Positions 8,508 to 16,805 of a stretch of DNA of 21,693 bases are shown here, piece after piece. How positions within the stretch are numbered: position 1 is the stretch's first letter; the number at the start of each line of letters is the position of its first letter. The position numbers were made by a program, and so were the translations under genes. Under the pieces are notes generated by a model, which searched no databases, was not told the DNA's origin, and worked only from the letters and a program-made list of their open reading frames with translations. Origin of the DNA: a virus; the IMG/VR virus record IMGVR_UViG_3300035458_000013, positions 1 through 21,693 of that record; one strand, written 5' to 3'.

Positions 8508-9097
8508 CCCGCAAGCGCCACGTGGTGGCCGCCAAGGCGAAGGCGCGGCCGACGCAGACCCGGGCGGCCGCGAAGCCAGTCGCCATCGTGGTGAGGCCAC
8601 CGAAACCCTTCGCCGACCTTTGCCATCCGAACGCCCGCGCGCAACGGGCTTTCCTGATCGCCTACGCGAAAACGGGCATCATCACGCTCGCGGCGGCCGC
8701 GGCCCGGGTGGACCGGCACTCGCACCTCAACTGGCTGGCCTACGATGGTCGGGGCGGAGAAGCCTACCGCCTCGCCTTCTCCGAGGCTGAGGAGATGGCG
8801 GCCGACGTGCTCGAAGCGGAGGCGCGCCGGCGCGCCGTGGAGGGCCTGGTCCGCTATCGCTTCGACAAGCAGGGGAATCCGCTCCTGCACCCGCTGACGA
8901 AGAAGCCCTACTACGAGCTGGAATACAGCGACGCGCTCCTGCAGCAGCAGCTCCGCGCGAACCGGCCGGAGAAGTACCGCGAGCGGCTGGAACACACCGG
9001 TAAGGACGGCGGGCCGATTCTGATCGAGCCCGTGGTGGAGAAGCTCCGCGCGCGCCTTGAAGCGCAGGCGTCTTCGACGCGGGAGCCGTCGAAGTGA
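8504..9097 (+). CDS. terS: Terminase small subunit
   Basis: The product has 197 residues. The basic N-terminal 35 residues are probably flexible. Residues about 43-80 form a helix-turn-helix of the terminase small-subunit type: ARAQRAFLIAYAKTGIITLA, then AAARVDRHSHLNWL. The following block has the typical EAYRLAFSEAEEMAADVLEA and EARRRAVEGL helices. The YSDALLQQQLRANRPEKYRE segment (141-160) is characteristic of many small subunits. This protein recognises the phage DNA packaging site and hands the DNA to the large subunit. The gene directly precedes, and overlaps by four bases (GTGA), the large-subunit gene, which supports the call. Confidence 0.85.
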   Translation: MTRKRHVVAAKAKARPTQTRAAAKPVAIVVRPPKPFADLCHPNARAQRAFLIAYAKTGIITLAAAAARVDRHSHLNWLAYDGRGGEAYRLAFSEAEEMAADVLEAEARRRAVEGLVRYRFDKQGNPLLHPLTKKPYYELEYSDALLQQQLRANRPEKYRERLEHTGKDGGPILIEPVVEKLRARLEAQASSTREPSK

Positions 9098-10566
9098 CGA
9101 CGGACCTCGCAGCCCTGCGCACCGACCTGCTGCGCCTGACGCCGAGCGAGCGCGCGGCGGCGCTGGCCTCGCTGAGCGAGTCGGAAGCGCAGGCGCTGTA
9201 TTACAACTGGCGCTTCTGGGCGCGGCCGGCGCAACTTCCCCCGCCGGGGCCGTGGACCGTCTGGGTGCTCATGCCCGGACGCGGGTACGGGAAGACCAGA
9301 GCCGGCGCCGAGTGGGTCATCGAGCAGGCGCAGACACCGGAGACGCGGATCGCGCTCGTGGCCAACATCCCCTCGGACGCGCGCGACGTGCTCATCGAGG
9401 GCGAGTCGGGCATCCTGCCGTATTCGCCGCCCTGGTTCCGCCCGCACTACGAGCCGTCGAAGCGGCGCCTGACCTGGCCGAACGGGTCGATCGCGCGCAC
9501 GTTCTCGGCGCAGGTGCCCGACGAATTGCGCGGCCCCCAGCATCACAAGGCGTGGTGCGACGAGTTGTGCAAGTGGCGCAATCCGCAGGACACGTTCGAC
9601 ATGCTGATGTTCGGCCTGCGCCTCGGCGACAACCCGCAGGCCGTCATCACGACGACGCCGCGGCCCATCCCGACATTCAAGGCGATCCTCGCGGATGCGG
9701 CGACGGTCATCACGCGCGGGTCCACCTACGAGAACGCGGCAAACGTCGCGCCCGCGTTCCTGCGCCAGATTCTCAAAGCCTACGAGGGCACGAAACTCGG
9801 CCAGCAGGAGCTGCACGGGCAACTCGTCGAGCAGGTGGACGGGGCGCTGTGGACGCGCGACCTCATCGAGCGGGCGCGCGTGCGCTCGGCCCCGGCGTTG
9901 AAACGCATCGTGGTGGCGATCGACCCGGCCGCCACGAGCGGGGCCGATGCGGACGAGACGGGCATCGTCGTGGCGGGCATCGACGCGGCGGGCGAGGGCT
10001 ACGTGCTCGACGACCTGAGCGGCCGCTACTCGCCGGACGGCTGGGCCTCGCGGGCGGTCGCCGCGGCGAATGCGCAGGGCGCGGACCGCATCATCGCCGA
10101 GGCCAACAACGGCGGCGAGATGGTGGAGTTCACGATCCGCACGGTGGACAAGAACGCGAGCTATCGCGCGGTCCATGCGAGCCGGGGGAAGCGCACGCGC
10201 GCGGAGCCCGTCGCCGCGCTCTACGAACAGCAGAAGGTCCACCACGTCGGCCTCTTCGCGGAACTCGAAGATCAGCTCTGCACCTGGGAGGCGACGAGCG
10301 GCGACTCCTCGCCCGACCGACTCGACGCGCTCGTGTGGGCTTTGACGGACCTGATGCTGGACGGGCGCAGCGGGTTTCTCTCGTGGATGGAGCAGAAAGC
10401 CACGGCGGCGTCCGCGCCGGCCCCGGAGACGCATGGGGCGAGCGAGGACGATCTCGTGCTGGCGCACCAGGCGTGCCGCATCAAGGGCGGCGTGCGGACT
10501 GTCGCCGTGGACGGGCGGCTGAAGTGCTCGAAGTGCGGGTGCGATCTCGGGAGGGCGAACACGTGA
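9094..10566 (+). CDS. terL: Terminase large subunit (packaging ATPase-nuclease) with zinc-ribbon-like tail
   Basis: The product has 490 residues. The Walker A motif is PGRGYGKT (61-68) and the Walker B region is KAWCDEL (152-158, D156/E157). TTTPRP (187-192) matches the coupling motif. The RNase H-like nuclease domain has its acidic residues at D277 (AIDPAA), E336 (IAEANNGG) and D411 (DRLDALVWAL). This is the motor that cuts concatemeric DNA and pumps it into the prohead through the portal. The sequence resembles the COG5323/Terminase_6 group. After the usual end (about residue 430) there is an additional tail with C461, C478, C481 and C483 (LKCSKCGCDL), a possible zinc ribbon. The GTG start overlaps the small-subunit stop. 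Confidence 0.95.
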   Translation: MTTDLAALRTDLLRLTPSERAAALASLSESEAQALYYNWRFWARPAQLPPPGPWTVWVLMPGRGYGKTRAGAEWVIEQAQTPETRIALVANIPSDARDVLIEGESGILPYSPPWFRPHYEPSKRRLTWPNGSIARTFSAQVPDELRGPQHHKAWCDELCKWRNPQDTFDMLMFGLRLGDNPQAVITTTPRPIPTFKAILADAATVITRGSTYENAANVAPAFLRQILKAYEGTKLGQQELHGQLVEQVDGALWTRDLIERARVRSAPALKRIVVAIDPAATSGADADETGIVVAGIDAAGEGYVLDDLSGRYSPDGWASRAVAAANAQGADRIIAEANNGGEMVEFTIRTVDKNASYRAVHASRGKRTRAEPVAALYEQQKVHHVGLFAELEDQLCTWEATSGDSSPDRLDALVWALTDLMLDGRSGFLSWMEQKATAASAPAPETHGASEDDLVLAHQACRIKGGVRTVAVDGRLKCSKCGCDLGRANT

Positions 10567-10572
10567 GCACGT

Positions 10573-10697
10573 GGCGGGTCGAGGCCGGGCTAGGCGCGGC
10601 GGGGTGAGGCCGGGTCTGGTTCGGCATGGATCTCCGACGTGGCTGGGCAAGGAATGTGGCAGGGCAAAGCCGGGTCGGGCTAGGCGCGGCGGGGAAC
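10573..10697 (+). repeat. Degenerate 5-bp GGNNN repeat
   Basis: From 10573 to 10632, eleven of twelve consecutive 5-bp units start with GG on the + strand. Three further units (10641-10655) are in a shifted phase, and eight units (10658-10697) return to the first phase, again nearly all starting with GG. The three middle bases vary freely. A 19-bp exact repeat at 10586-10604 and 10676-10694 lies inside it, 90 bp (18 units) apart. Four GG pairs spaced by three bases is also a two-tetrad G-quadruplex motif. The block starts seven bases after the terminase stop. Confidence 0.75.
10586..10694 (+). repeat. 19-bp exact direct repeat pair
   Basis: The sequence CGGGCTAGGCGCGGCGGGG occurs at 10586-10604 and again at 10676-10694, exactly 90 bp apart. 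Both copies lie in the GGNNN repeat region and in the same 5-bp phase. The pair could be what remains of a tandem duplication, or a recombination substrate. Confidence 0.8.
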
Positions 10698-10802
10698 TGG
10701 GTCGCCCTGCTCTGGCTGGCGCGGCCTCGGGCGCCCAACACCTGCTCGTGGCTCGGCGTCACGGTGCAGTGGGATCACGTTCAGGACACGGAGGCTCCAT
10801 GA
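10626..10802 (+). CDS. Candidate 58-residue ORF within the terminase-portal insert
   Basis: ATG at 10626 opens a frame that ends in TGA at 10800-10802, overlapping the ATG (10799) of the HTH gene in the ATGA arrangement used by most genes here. The first 23 residues are read from the GGNNN repeat (MDLRRGWARNVAGQSRVGLG). The second half is less biased: PRAPNTCSWLGVTVQWDH and then VQDTEAP, with tryptophans and no stop until the overlap. No clear ribosome-binding site precedes ATG 10626. It may be a small coupled gene or the open frame may be accidental. No family is recognised. Confidence 0.4.
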   Translation: MDLRRGWARNVAGQSRVGLGAAGNWVALLWLARPRAPNTCSWLGVTVQWDHVQDTEAP

Positions 10803-11044
10803 CGAGTGACCAGTTCGAGCAGGCAGTGCTCGCGGGCAAGGCCCTCATCGAAATCGGCCGGCACGAGGATTCCGTCACCGTGCTCGTGGCGGCAGCCGTC
10901 CTCGACGTGTCGGCCGAGTGCGTCTACCGCTACGTCCGCGACGGCGTGCTGAAGGCGCACCACTTCGGCCGCTACCGGAAGCGCATCCGCATCCCCTGCG
11001 ACGAACTGCACCGGTTCGTTCACGGCGCGCGGGTGCGCGCATGA
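10799..11044 (+). CDS. Excisionase-family helix-turn-helix protein
   Basis: The product has 81 residues. ATG at 10799 was chosen because GGAGG lies 4 bases upstream; extending the frame back to GTG 10571 adds only repeat-derived, low-complexity residues. Residues 27-75 match the excisionase/MerR-like HTH_17 fold: TVLVAAAVLDVSAECVYRYV is the turn and recognition helix, then RDGVLKAHHFGRYRKRIRIP is the wing, ending in DELHRFV. Such proteins act as small DNA-binding regulators or recombination directionality factors. No integrase is in the window, so an excision role cannot be claimed. Sitting between terminase and portal is unusual and suggests a moron-like insertion. The stop overlaps the next ATG (ATGA). 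Confidence 0.8.
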   Translation: MTSDQFEQAVLAGKALIEIGRHEDSVTVLVAAAVLDVSAECVYRYVRDGVLKAHHFGRYRKRIRIPCDELHRFVHGARVRA

Positions 11045-11340
11045 GCGGTCCTATGGCCAACACCACGATTCGCAACGACGAGCTGCGTTCCTTGCCGATC
11101 GGAACCGAGCTGCTCTTTTCGTCCAGTGTGGAGCCCGCGCGGTCGATCCAGATGCGGCTGGCCCAACGGTGGACGATGTTCGACCCGCCCGGTCAGGTCA
11201 TCGTCATCCTGGAGGCCGTGTACCTGCCAGGCGTGACGGTGTCGATCGCGTTCAACCCCGATCGCTCACTGGGATCCGACGAACTGACGCTCTCGGTGTC
11301 TGACGACCCCGCCCCCGAATACGACGATAGGCTACCGTAG
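11041..11340 (+). CDS. Small protein of unknown function
   Basis: The product has 99 residues from ATG at 11041, overlapping the HTH stop. It has no cysteines or membrane helix and a beta-rich pattern: GTELLFSSSVEPARSIQMRL, GQVIVILEAVYLPGVTVSIA and ELTLSVSDDP alternate hydrophobic residues. The acidic C-terminus YDDRLP is encoded by the first copy of a 20-bp tandem duplication, whose last bases form the TAG stop. An ATG at 11053 is an alternative start. The fold cannot be named. Its companion role with the HTH protein is an inference from the overlap. Confidence 0.6.
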   Translation: MSGPMANTTIRNDELRSLPIGTELLFSSSVEPARSIQMRLAQRWTMFDPPGQVIVILEAVYLPGVTVSIAFNPDRSLGSDELTLSVSDDPAPEYDDRLP

Positions 11341-11360
11341 ACGACGATAGGCTACCGTAG
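11321..11360 (+). repeat. Perfect 20-bp tandem duplication
   Basis: The 20-mer ACGACGATAGGCTACCGTAG is present twice without spacer (11321-11340 and 11341-11360). The flanking bases differ, so the duplicated unit is exactly 20 bp. The first copy encodes the last codons and TAG stop of the upstream gene. The second lies between that stop and the portal start at 11373. There is a short inner symmetry, TAG-G-CTA. It could be a slippage duplication, a small operator pair upstream of the portal, or an assembly artefact. Confidence 0.85.
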
Positions 11361-11372
11361 TAACATCTCACG

Positions 11373-13274
11373 GTGGACACCTCAGCGGGTGGGGTCCATC
11401 GTGAGGTCGTGCATGCCGACCTGTCGATCGGCCCGTTCCGCCTGACGATTGGCCGTCCCGCCGATCCGGTCGCCGCATCCTCGCCTGACCCGATCACCAA
11501 AGCCGCCTCCCCGGCGGCGGTGTCGGCGTCACCCGCCACGTTCACCGCCGCTCCTGCCGCCGGCATTCGTCCCGACCCCGGCGCCACCCCTCCCGGCCAG
11601 CCGACCGCCGACCCGATCCGCTACCAGTATCCCTGGAACCGCAACGCCGTCTGGACGCCCCGCGCGGGCGAGACGACGCCGTTCCAGACGCTGCGCAATC
11701 TCGCCAAGGTCTGCTGGGAGATCTTCGCGTGCAAGGAGACGCGCAAGGAGCAACTCCAGTCGCTCGACTGGGACATCGTCCCGCGCGACAAGCACACCGG
11801 CAGCAATGAGCAGGCGAACATCGCCCGGGTGCGGGCCTTCTTCGCCAAGCCGGACGGGGAGACGCCCTTCCGGTCCTGGCTGGGCACGGCCATCGAGGAC
11901 GTGCTTGTGATCGACGCCCTGAGCCTCTACCGCCGCAAGACGCGCGGCGGGGCCTTCTACGGCCTGGAGATCGTCGACGGGGCCACCATCCTCCCGCTGC
12001 TCGATGCCCGCGGCCGGACGCCCGCCCCGCCGTCCACGGCCTATCGTCAAGTCATCTGGGGCCAGCCGATCGAGGGCGGCGACTGCACGCGCGAGCAGCT
12101 GATCTACCGGCCGCGCGTGAATGCCGTCAACAGCCCCTACGGCATGTCGCCGACTGAGGCCGTGTTGCTGACGGTCAACGCCGCGCTGTCGCGCCGCGTC
12201 TTCGACCTGCAGTACTACGCCGAGGGCAACGTGCCCGAGGGCTTCGCCACGCTGCCGGACACCTGGACGCCCGACCAGATGACGCAGTTCCAGGAGCACT
12301 TCAACAGCCTCGGGTCGGGCTACTCCACGGAGCGCAGTCGGATCAAGTTTCTGCCGGCGTCGACGGGCGAGAAGTTCATCCGCTTTCAGGAGCGCGACCA
12401 CGACACGAAGTTTGACGAGTTCCTCGTCAAGGTCGCCTGCGCGGCGTTCGCGGTCCCGCCCAGCGAGATCGGCTTCACGGCCGACGTCAACAAGTCCACC
12501 GCGAAGGCTCAGCAGGACATCGCGTATCGCCGCGGCGTCCGGCCGCTGTGCAACTACTTCAAGGATCTCTTCGACGAAGTCATCGCCTTCGATCTCGGCC
12601 TGCCGCAACTCGAATGGGCATGGGCGGCCGGCGAATCCGAGGACCGGCTGCGCCAAGCCGAGATCGACAAGATTTACGTCGAGATCGGCAAGAACTCGAT
12701 CGATGAGTTGCGCGCCCGCGACGGCGAAGAACTGATCGGGATGGGGAACGCCATCTACCTGACGGATGGACCGCGCTTCGTCGCGGATCTCATCTCGGGC
12801 ATCGACGACGACCCAACCACGACGGAGACGAGCGGCGCGCCGGGAGCCGAGGCGACGCCCGCACCGGGCGCCGAGCCCGTGACGGCGCAGCCCGACGCGG
12901 AGGCCGCGCACGCCGAAGCGGCCACGAAGGTAGCCGCCGTCGAGGCCGACCTTCGTAAGTGGCGCACGGTGGCCGTCAAGGCCGTCAAGTCCGGGAAGAC
13001 CGTCAAGGCGTTCACGTCCGAGGCCATTCCGCCCGCGCTCCACCAGGGCATCAGCCGTGCGCTCACGGCGGCCGTCTCGCCTGCGGACGTCGTCGCGGTG
13101 TTCGATGCCATCGAGAAGCGCGCGAAGACGGTCCGCACACGCGCCCAGATCGAAAAGCAGGTCCGGCAGCAGTCCTCCGCGTTCTTCGCGGCGCAGGGTG
13201 AGGCGCTCGCGCGCCATCTCCGCGCCCACATCCAAGCGGCCGGCGACGGGAACGGCGAGGTGGCCCGTGCATGA
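11373..13274 (+). CDS. Phage portal protein (HK97/SPP1-like)
   Basis: The product has 633 residues, starting at GTG 11373 (a GTG at 11409 is an alternative; neither has a strong ribosome-binding site). Residues 1-80 are Pro/Ala-rich, probably disordered, and longer than usual. The portal core (about 85-475) includes WNRNAVWTPRAG, the YRQVIWG strand, and NSPYGMSPTEAVLLTVNAAL followed by the QYYAEGNVPEGF helix-loop, which is the most recognisable portal signature. It also has FAVPPSEIGFTADVNKSTAK. The portal forms the dodecameric ring at the vertex through which terminase pumps DNA. A variable Thr/Ala/Pro linker (about 475-510) leads to a helical C-terminal domain (about 515-625) that may be a head-interior extension. 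The stop overlaps the next gene by ATGA. Confidence 0.92.
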   Translation: MDTSAGGVHREVVHADLSIGPFRLTIGRPADPVAASSPDPITKAASPAAVSASPATFTAAPAAGIRPDPGATPPGQPTADPIRYQYPWNRNAVWTPRAGETTPFQTLRNLAKVCWEIFACKETRKEQLQSLDWDIVPRDKHTGSNEQANIARVRAFFAKPDGETPFRSWLGTAIEDVLVIDALSLYRRKTRGGAFYGLEIVDGATILPLLDARGRTPAPPSTAYRQVIWGQPIEGGDCTREQLIYRPRVNAVNSPYGMSPTEAVLLTVNAALSRRVFDLQYYAEGNVPEGFATLPDTWTPDQMTQFQEHFNSLGSGYSTERSRIKFLPASTGEKFIRFQERDHDTKFDEFLVKVACAAFAVPPSEIGFTADVNKSTAKAQQDIAYRRGVRPLCNYFKDLFDEVIAFDLGLPQLEWAWAAGESEDRLRQAEIDKIYVEIGKNSIDELRARDGEELIGMGNAIYLTDGPRFVADLISGIDDDPTTTETSGAPGAEATPAPGAEPVTAQPDAEAAHAEAATKVAAVEADLRKWRTVAVKAVKSGKTVKAFTSEAIPPALHQGISRALTAAVSPADVVAVFDAIEKRAKTVRTRAQIEKQVRQQSSAFFAAQGEALARHLRAHIQAAGDGNGEVARA

Positions 13275-15389: not shown

Positions 15390-16805
15390 ATGAAAGCCAT
15401 GACGCAGGTCACCGAAGAACTCATCCAGAAGGCCCTGGAGCTGATCAAGGGTCAGAACGGCGTGCAGAAGTCGATCACGTCGGCGAGCGGCTTCTCCGGC
15501 TACGACCTCCAGCCGGTCGCCATGCTCCTGCAGCCGGTCATCACGCCGCTGCGCAACCGCCTCCCGCGCGTCTCCCCGGTGGGCGGCGGCACGTCCGCCG
15601 AGTGGCGCTACATCTCGTCCCTGATCTCGGCCGGCGTCACCAGCGCGACGCCCAGCGCCGAAGGCGCGAAGGGGAACGCGCTCGGCTACACCGCGACGCC
15701 CGTCACCGCGGCGTTCGCCGAGAAGGCCCTGAGCGACTACGTCACGTTCACGGCGCAGGACGCCGCCCGCGGCTTCGAGGATGACCTCAAGGCCCGCGCG
15801 CACACGAACCTCCTCTACGCGCTGATGATGGTCGAGGAACAGGATCTCCTCTTCGACCGCATCGCCAACTTCGGCGCCGTCACCGCCCCGACCGTCGTCG
15901 TCGACGCGGCGTCCGGCGCCGTGGCGGCGGGCACCTGGCTCGTGAAGGTCCGCGCCATCACCGGCACGGGCGACCACACGAACACCCGCGGGCGCATCTC
16001 GGCGTCCGGCACCTCTGGCGTCCTCGGCGGCGCGACGAACACCCTCTACTGCTACACCGACTGGGTCGAGGGCGCGGTCGCCTACGAGTGGTATGTCGAC
16101 AACGGCGCGGGCGGCGGCACCTGGTACTGGCAGGCCACCACGGGCGTCAACTGCGTCAAGCTCTCGTCGGTCATCGTGACGACGGGAACGGCCCCGAACA
16201 TCGCGGCCCCGGCGGACAACGTCGCCAACGCGCTCGGCATGAACGGGCTGATCGCGCAGGCCACGGCGGCCAACGGCGCCTACATCAAGACGCTGACCAC
16301 CGACACCACGACGGGCGTCGGGACCGACTTCACGCTCGACGACGTCGATGCCGCGAACAAGAGCGTGTGGGACAAGGCCAAGGGCAATCCCGACACGATC
16401 TACATGAACTCGACGCAGCGCGCCCGCATGACGAAGCTGTGGCTGGCGGCCAACGGCGGCCCGACCACGCTCGTGCAGGCAAACTCCGCCGACATGAGCG
16501 GCCTGCGCGGCGGCTTCCTGCTCTCCGAATACGTCAACGTGGCGACCGGTCGCGTGCAGACGATCGAGACGCATCCCTACCTGCCGGACGGCACGATGTG
16601 CGCCGTCAGCCACACCATCCCGTTCCCGACCGGCGGAGACATGGTCGGCGTCGACGTGCAGGTGAGCACCGACTACCGGCAGATCGACTACGCGCAGACG
16701 GCGAACCGCTATGACTTCGGCGTGTTCGTGCGCGAAGTCCTGCGGCTGAAGTTCCCCGGCGGATCGTGGGTCATCCGCAACATCCGCAGCAAGGCCACGG
16801 CGTAA
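15390..16805 (+). CDS. Major capsid protein (HK97 fold) with Ig-like insertion
   Basis: The product has 471 residues. It follows the protease/scaffold gene and has the features of a major capsid protein: a helical N-terminal arm (1-24); an E-loop-like region with GYDLQPVAMLLQPVITPLRN and a following SAEWRYISS strand (about 38-78); and a helix EDDLKARAHTNLLYALMMVE (130-149). The C-terminal core contains NPDTIYMNSTQRARMTKLWL, a QTIETHPYLPDGTM segment and FGVFVREVLRLKFPGG. Residues about 165-268 look like an inserted beta domain (GTWLVKVRAITGTGDHTNTR, YEWYVDNGAGGGTWYW), resembling Ig/fibronectin-type modules. HK97-fold capsids build the icosahedral shell. A two-part hairpin follows the stop. Confidence 0.88.
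   Translation: MKAMTQVTEELIQKALELIKGQNGVQKSITSASGFSGYDLQPVAMLLQPVITPLRNRLPRVSPVGGGTSAEWRYISSLISAGVTSATPSAEGAKGNALGYTATPVTAAFAEKALSDYVTFTAQDAARGFEDDLKARAHTNLLYALMMVEEQDLLFDRIANFGAVTAPTVVVDAASGAVAAGTWLVKVRAITGTGDHTNTRGRISASGTSGVLGGATNTLYCYTDWVEGAVAYEWYVDNGAGGGTWYWQATTGVNCVKLSSVIVTTGTAPNIAAPADNVANALGMNGLIAQATAANGAYIKTLTTDTTTGVGTDFTLDDVDAANKSVWDKAKGNPDTIYMNSTQRARMTKLWLAANGGPTTLVQANSADMSGLRGGFLLSEYVNVATGRVQTIETHPYLPDGTMCAVSHTIPFPTGGDMVGVDVQVSTDYRQIDYAQTANRYDFGVFVREVLRLKFPGGSWVIRNIRSKATA

Follow-up and report, generated by a model that had tools for sequence, protein, structure and literature searches.

What is the role of a run of five-base units, most of them beginning with GG, that lies between the terminase and portal genes of a phage? 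The run is found in a viral IMG/VR record of 21,693 bases, which was analysed at its full length (the window) and is a fragment. The gene order of the window leads from a ParB-like gene and a HerA-like ATPase to terminase, portal, head protease, a gene in the capsid position and connector genes. The capsid-position gene (15390-16805) belongs to a PHROG of unknown function. The features on which the question turns are these:

9094..10566, + strand: terminase large subunit, left flank of the insert, with its stop at 10566
10567..11372, + strand: terminase-portal insert of 806 bp, with the array at its left edge, followed by an HTH_17 protein and a 99-aa ORF
10573..10632, + strand: array block 1, 12 GGYNN slots giving 11 YNNGG units, with GT for GG once; last unit GGA
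10586..10604, + strand: 19-bp segment CGGGCTAGGCGCGGCGGGG, copy 1, the duplicated segment of the putative guide
10641..10655, + strand: three shifted GGYNN units within the interruption (GGCTG GGCAA GGAAT), register offset 3 nt
10658..10697, + strand: array block 2, 8 units with AG for GG once, resuming the phase of block 1; last unit GGA
10676..10694, + strand: 19-bp segment CGGGCTAGGCGCGGCGGGG, copy 2, 90 bp (18 units) downstream of copy 1
10799..11044, + strand: HTH_17 (excisionase-like) small DNA-binding protein in the insert (PF12728, E 1.3e-9)
11041..11340, + strand: 99-aa ORF in the insert, annotated without a function and without similarity to Vipr
11373..13274, + strand: portal protein, right flank of the insert, with its start at 11373

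The array at 10573-10697 consists of 23 five-base units in two registers, 21 of which start with GG, and one common phase holds 18 of its 25 slots. A sequence-only reading of this DNA had described a GGNNN repeat that keeps its phase across a short interruption. Block 2 does return to the phase of block 1, but the interruption itself contains three units that are out of register. The exact copy of 19 bp that was claimed to lie 18 units away is present. The regular spacing of the GGs also stands, as does the proposal that selection acts on this spacing and not on codons, but the three bases that follow are not all free. The third base is a pyrimidine in 18 of the 21 GG units and never a G. In the rest of the window, the base that follows GG is a pyrimidine in 62% of cases and a G in 20% (P about 0.017 for the first difference and 0.009 for the second). 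Since the third base is rich in pyrimidine and free of G, the true motif is GGY/NN. Twelve different NN dinucleotides occur among the 23 units, and it is these varying bases that probably carry the information of the array. The terminal GGA units were considered as a mark of guide ends; their enrichment is mild (12% vs 3%) and is not relied on. The exact 19-mer was dropped as a tag for sister phages because its one other occurrence in IMG/VR is unrelated and lies outside any array. Duplication of the same kind is seen in a long array of another phage locus (L088, 1088-1462), in which a nine-unit segment is duplicated exactly.

The periodicity is a real signal at the coordinates first reported. 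The score of the period-5 GG run is 11 in the array, and the next best score for any period below 10 in the window is 5. Local shuffles of the same length that preserve dinucleotides reached 11 in none of 2000 trials (maximum 9, mean 3.4), 100 order-2 Markov versions of the full window stayed at or below 6, and 415 kb of GC-rich relatives, scored on both strands, peaked at 7. These controls argue against chance or tandem-repeat drift in GC-rich DNA, and so does the variety of dinucleotides, since simple tandem repeats have a uniform NN. A related idea is that the block is an attenuator hairpin with an incidental GG rhythm. It draws on the strong fold of block 1 (z -5.4 against dinucleotide shuffles), whose hairpin is stronger than that of NN-shuffled versions (P 0.006), and drift could likewise account for the 19-bp copy as a local duplication. 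Taken together with the controls, we regard an origin by drift or as an attenuator as very unlikely. No CRISPR-type repeats (about 25-40 bp with unique spacers) were found in the window, the unit of the array being 5 bp. A search of the window against Rfam gave no match at the gathering threshold and only a chance-level match at a relaxed threshold, and direct BLAST of the array against phage records returned chance pieces only.

A literature search on the grammar of the array gave one match, the VIPR preprint of 2026 (PMC13142463). VIPR combines a small phage-encoded RAMP protein, Vipr, with vrRNAs, which are discrete RNAs of about 100 nt that co-purify with Vipr (PMC13142463). A vrRNA has 9-16 YNNGG units, in which GGY is conserved and NN is variable, followed by an invariant structured 3' tail that differs between types (PMC13142463). 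DNA is recognised through the variable NN pairs, with a single skipped base separating one pair from the next, and rival phages are repressed by the complex (PMC13142463). Some VIPR arrays contain hammerhead ribozymes, an Rfam-type family, and a complete locus also carries a vap accessory gene that often encodes a DNA-binding protein (PMC13142463). With 11 YNNGG units, block 1 of the window array lies inside the vrRNA range.

Whether such arrays in phages belong to VIPR was addressed by scanning IMG/VR for GGHNN x11, which returned at least 120 stretches and bears out the earlier impression that similar GG-periodic blocks occur in other phages. Vipr homologues were sought with ALH47069 and iterated profiles; this protein belongs to Escherichia phage SUSP1 (KT454805), the type II VIPR reference (PMC13142463), where arrays flank its gene. 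Among the matches listed, 89 of 120 array stretches have a Vipr homologue, which is never more than 1 kb away from an array (median distance 15 bp) and in 87 of the 89 is on the same strand. None of 52 array-free terminase relatives has one. The aligned family (A1) matches PDB entry 36pp, 'SUSP1 Vipr protein', at 7.8e-50, and an AlphaFold model built from IMG/VR sequences (pLDDT 96) is structurally closest to Csm3 and further CRISPR RAMPs of types III and VII. The Vipr family is a Cas7/Csm3-like RAMP. The linkage, the PDB match and the Csm3-like model together identify the arrays of these phage contigs as vrRNA arrays. In PHROGs the family is phrog_4652 (which includes SUSP1 ALH47069) with 'unknown function', and Pfam gives no function either; as a result, annotated phage genomes list its members as hypothetical. 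In one locus (L223, G410:C15:80407-81030), the Vipr gene that adjoins the array has one in-frame TGA and is possibly a pseudogene.

Arrays with varied NN exist outside VIPR, although they are rare. GGHNN x10 occurs in 16 of 385 alphaproteobacterial genomes, mostly as uniform tandem repeats. Five of the 16 genomes, with varied NN, were checked, and Vipr was present in one and absent in four; these four of 385 are a further point for drift. GCHNN proved a poor control pattern, since GGC arrays fit it when they are read on the other strand.

The family-wide link also bears on the roles first suggested for the block, namely two-tetrad G-quadruplexes, a packaging or recombination signal, or a short-repeat mobile sequence. 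Formally, two-tetrad quadruplexes could be built from G2N3 runs, and the terminase gene is next to the block. However, a pyrimidine at the third position is required by neither a quadruplex nor a signal, no array is present in comparable relatives whose terminase and portal genes stand in the same order, and the arrays track the Vipr gene and not the terminase. We therefore set these proposals aside in favour of a grammar that matches VIPR guide RNAs and of arrays that follow a Cas7-like RAMP gene, and consider a quadruplex, packaging or recombination role highly improbable.

The location of the array was compared among 22 relatives with a recognisable terminase and portal. The gap between the two genes is 738-1133 bp shorter in 21 of the 22, with a median difference of 826.5 bp. 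The window array therefore opens an insert, and its suspected position at the border of an inserted block is confirmed at the left edge of the 806 bp. The HTH_17 protein of the insert may be an accessory gene; in comparison with the Vipr loci, only L083 encodes a similar protein (E 0.019), which is no clear relative. Searches for sister phages that started from the HTH gene or from the major capsid were negative, and no relative carrying this array came to light. Shortly before the portal gene begins, a 20-bp sequence at the insert's right end is duplicated exactly in tandem (ACGACGATAGGCTACCGTAG twice, 11321-11360). VIPR loci lie between terminase and portal in three other cases (L023, L037, L040) and after a terminase in two more (L064, L105). 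The terminase-portal junction is an apparent cargo niche for VIPR loci, and other loci adjoin Sak4, RecT or exonuclease genes. At the same junction of another relative, a different insert is present (L125, 3860-4990), the reading frame of which suggests a tRNA-like sequence.

A Vipr gene is absent from the window contig, as judged by profile HMM, HH comparison and a search of all six frames over the full 21.7 kb. Because this defining gene was sought without success, the window array is classified as vrRNA-like and not as a complete VIPR system. Neither a terminator nor a promoter was found at the array, and a 3' hairpin after block 2 does not go beyond shuffles (z -0.29 and +0.93), with no relative found to compare tails. 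Block 2 is irregular. As for targets, an exact search of IMG/VR with block 1 under the rule of one skipped nucleotide gave no match. The same rule gave three exact matches for block 1 in GTDB species genomes and four matches for block 2, which is about the chance level. These matches include a Fimbriimonadales ORF, a Bacteroidales ORF and a Leisingera gene without phage context; with none in a plausible phage gene, they were taken as chance. When 0-3 bases were skipped, the targets decoded in the window, its relatives and the array loci were no better than those of shuffled guides.

These results raise the question of whether the array is the leftover of a decayed VIPR locus, which has lost its vipr gene and no longer provides a working guide. 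The missing vipr gene, tail hairpin and target agree with decay, and so do the two register slips and two broken GGs of the array. On the other hand, working SUSP1 vrRNAs carry as many broken units, the in-phase density of the window array (18 of 25 slots) is above the median of Vipr-adjacent arrays (median 14, upper quartile 19), and arrays without Vipr occur elsewhere with intact terminators. A decayed remnant is accordingly an unlikely explanation, if one that deserves some weight.

Arrays apart from a Vipr gene are not peculiar to the window. In three records (L059, L104, L086) the Vipr gene is far from the array, and others have an array without detectable Vipr in the record, among them L021 (105 kb), L025/G024 (56 kb), L012/G036 (35 kb) and L016/G022 (24.5 kb). 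The 56-kb contig carries four GGY arrays at three sites (including L225, 4925-5132). Two of its arrays are antisense; they are flanked by a portal-like gene on one side and a head protease/capsid-like gene on the other, and a similar hairpin with a T-run follows each of them. The L016/G022 contig has a single array with its own terminator among recombination-type genes. A hidden Vipr near the Vipr-less arrays was sought with a full-sensitivity HMM, by HH comparison with 421 ORFs from their vicinity and by searching the entire records, and none was found apart from cut-off fragments (L011, L062, L084) and the distant copies. In the Vipr-less records, which are possible fragments in IMG/VR, the Vipr may be too divergent for the profile or may lie on the missing part of the genome.

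The recurrence of Vipr-less arrays in phages, as on the 56-kb contig, could also mean that such an array is a decoy, an orphan vrRNA mimic that would load or jam the Vipr of a competing element. A guide for which no target was found suits a decoy as well. However, no observation made here tells a decoy from a guide, and the CRISPR parallel behind the idea is general knowledge; a decoy seems quite improbable.

The analysis shows the repeat grammar, the family-wide link of array and Vipr, the insert and the lack of a Vipr on the contig. We favour the view, with somewhat better than even confidence, that the block is a VIPR-type vrRNA guide array that works with a Vipr encoded elsewhere. It would comprise one guide of about 11 GGY/NN units and a second, irregular guide that shares the duplicated segment. 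The array and the two small genes would have been inserted together between the terminase and portal genes, and the array RNA would be read from the late operon. A Vipr RAMP is predicted to bind this RNA, with the protein holding the fixed GGY triplets. The NN dinucleotides would then pair with duplex DNA of a rival phage or satellite, one base being skipped between pairs, and transcription would be blocked there. Because Vipr is absent from the contig, its gene would lie on a part of the genome that this record lacks, or a co-resident element would provide the protein in trans. The array would be an orphan or be separated from its Vipr, and it may be decaying.

More broadly, and only tentatively, phages may carry orphan vrRNA genes as tiny cargo of the head and packaging operon, which would borrow or jam the Vipr of a co-resident phage. 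Guide and effector of this RNA-guided weapon between phages would then circulate separately, as the window would exemplify. The first description of VIPR dates only from 2026, and the main text of the preprint treats guides beside a vipr gene (PMC13142463). If guide arrays travel without their effector, VIPR immunity could be shared, parasitised and countered between phages, as with solitary CRISPR arrays. The decoded dinucleotides would give a direct, testable prediction of the rival of each phage. Even plainly read as a vrRNA-like array, the block explains a baffling class of repeats, seen in many phage contigs.

Solitary CRISPR repeat units and mini-arrays exist in phages, and solitary repeat RNAs act against CRISPR-Cas. 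The window array resembles them as a guide-like RNA on a mobile element without an effector of its own, but the repeat code and the RAMP family differ. With the vrRNAs of VIPR it shares the alternation of GGY and NN, about 11 units per guide and an intergenic position in a phage, and with those of SUSP1 the imperfect units with broken GGs, which are as numerous there. In contrast to VIPR vrRNAs, it lies on a contig without vipr, has no recognisable 3' tail hairpin or identified target, and has a strong internal fold in block 1; the folds of 232 Vipr-adjacent arrays have an average z of 0.03, with 1.3% below -2.5. The Vipr-less arrays of L025, L016 and L012 are similar to it in having the same grammar, a position between unrelated phage genes and no Vipr found in the record. 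Those of L025 and L016 are regular and have clear hairpin terminators, whereas the window array has neither property.
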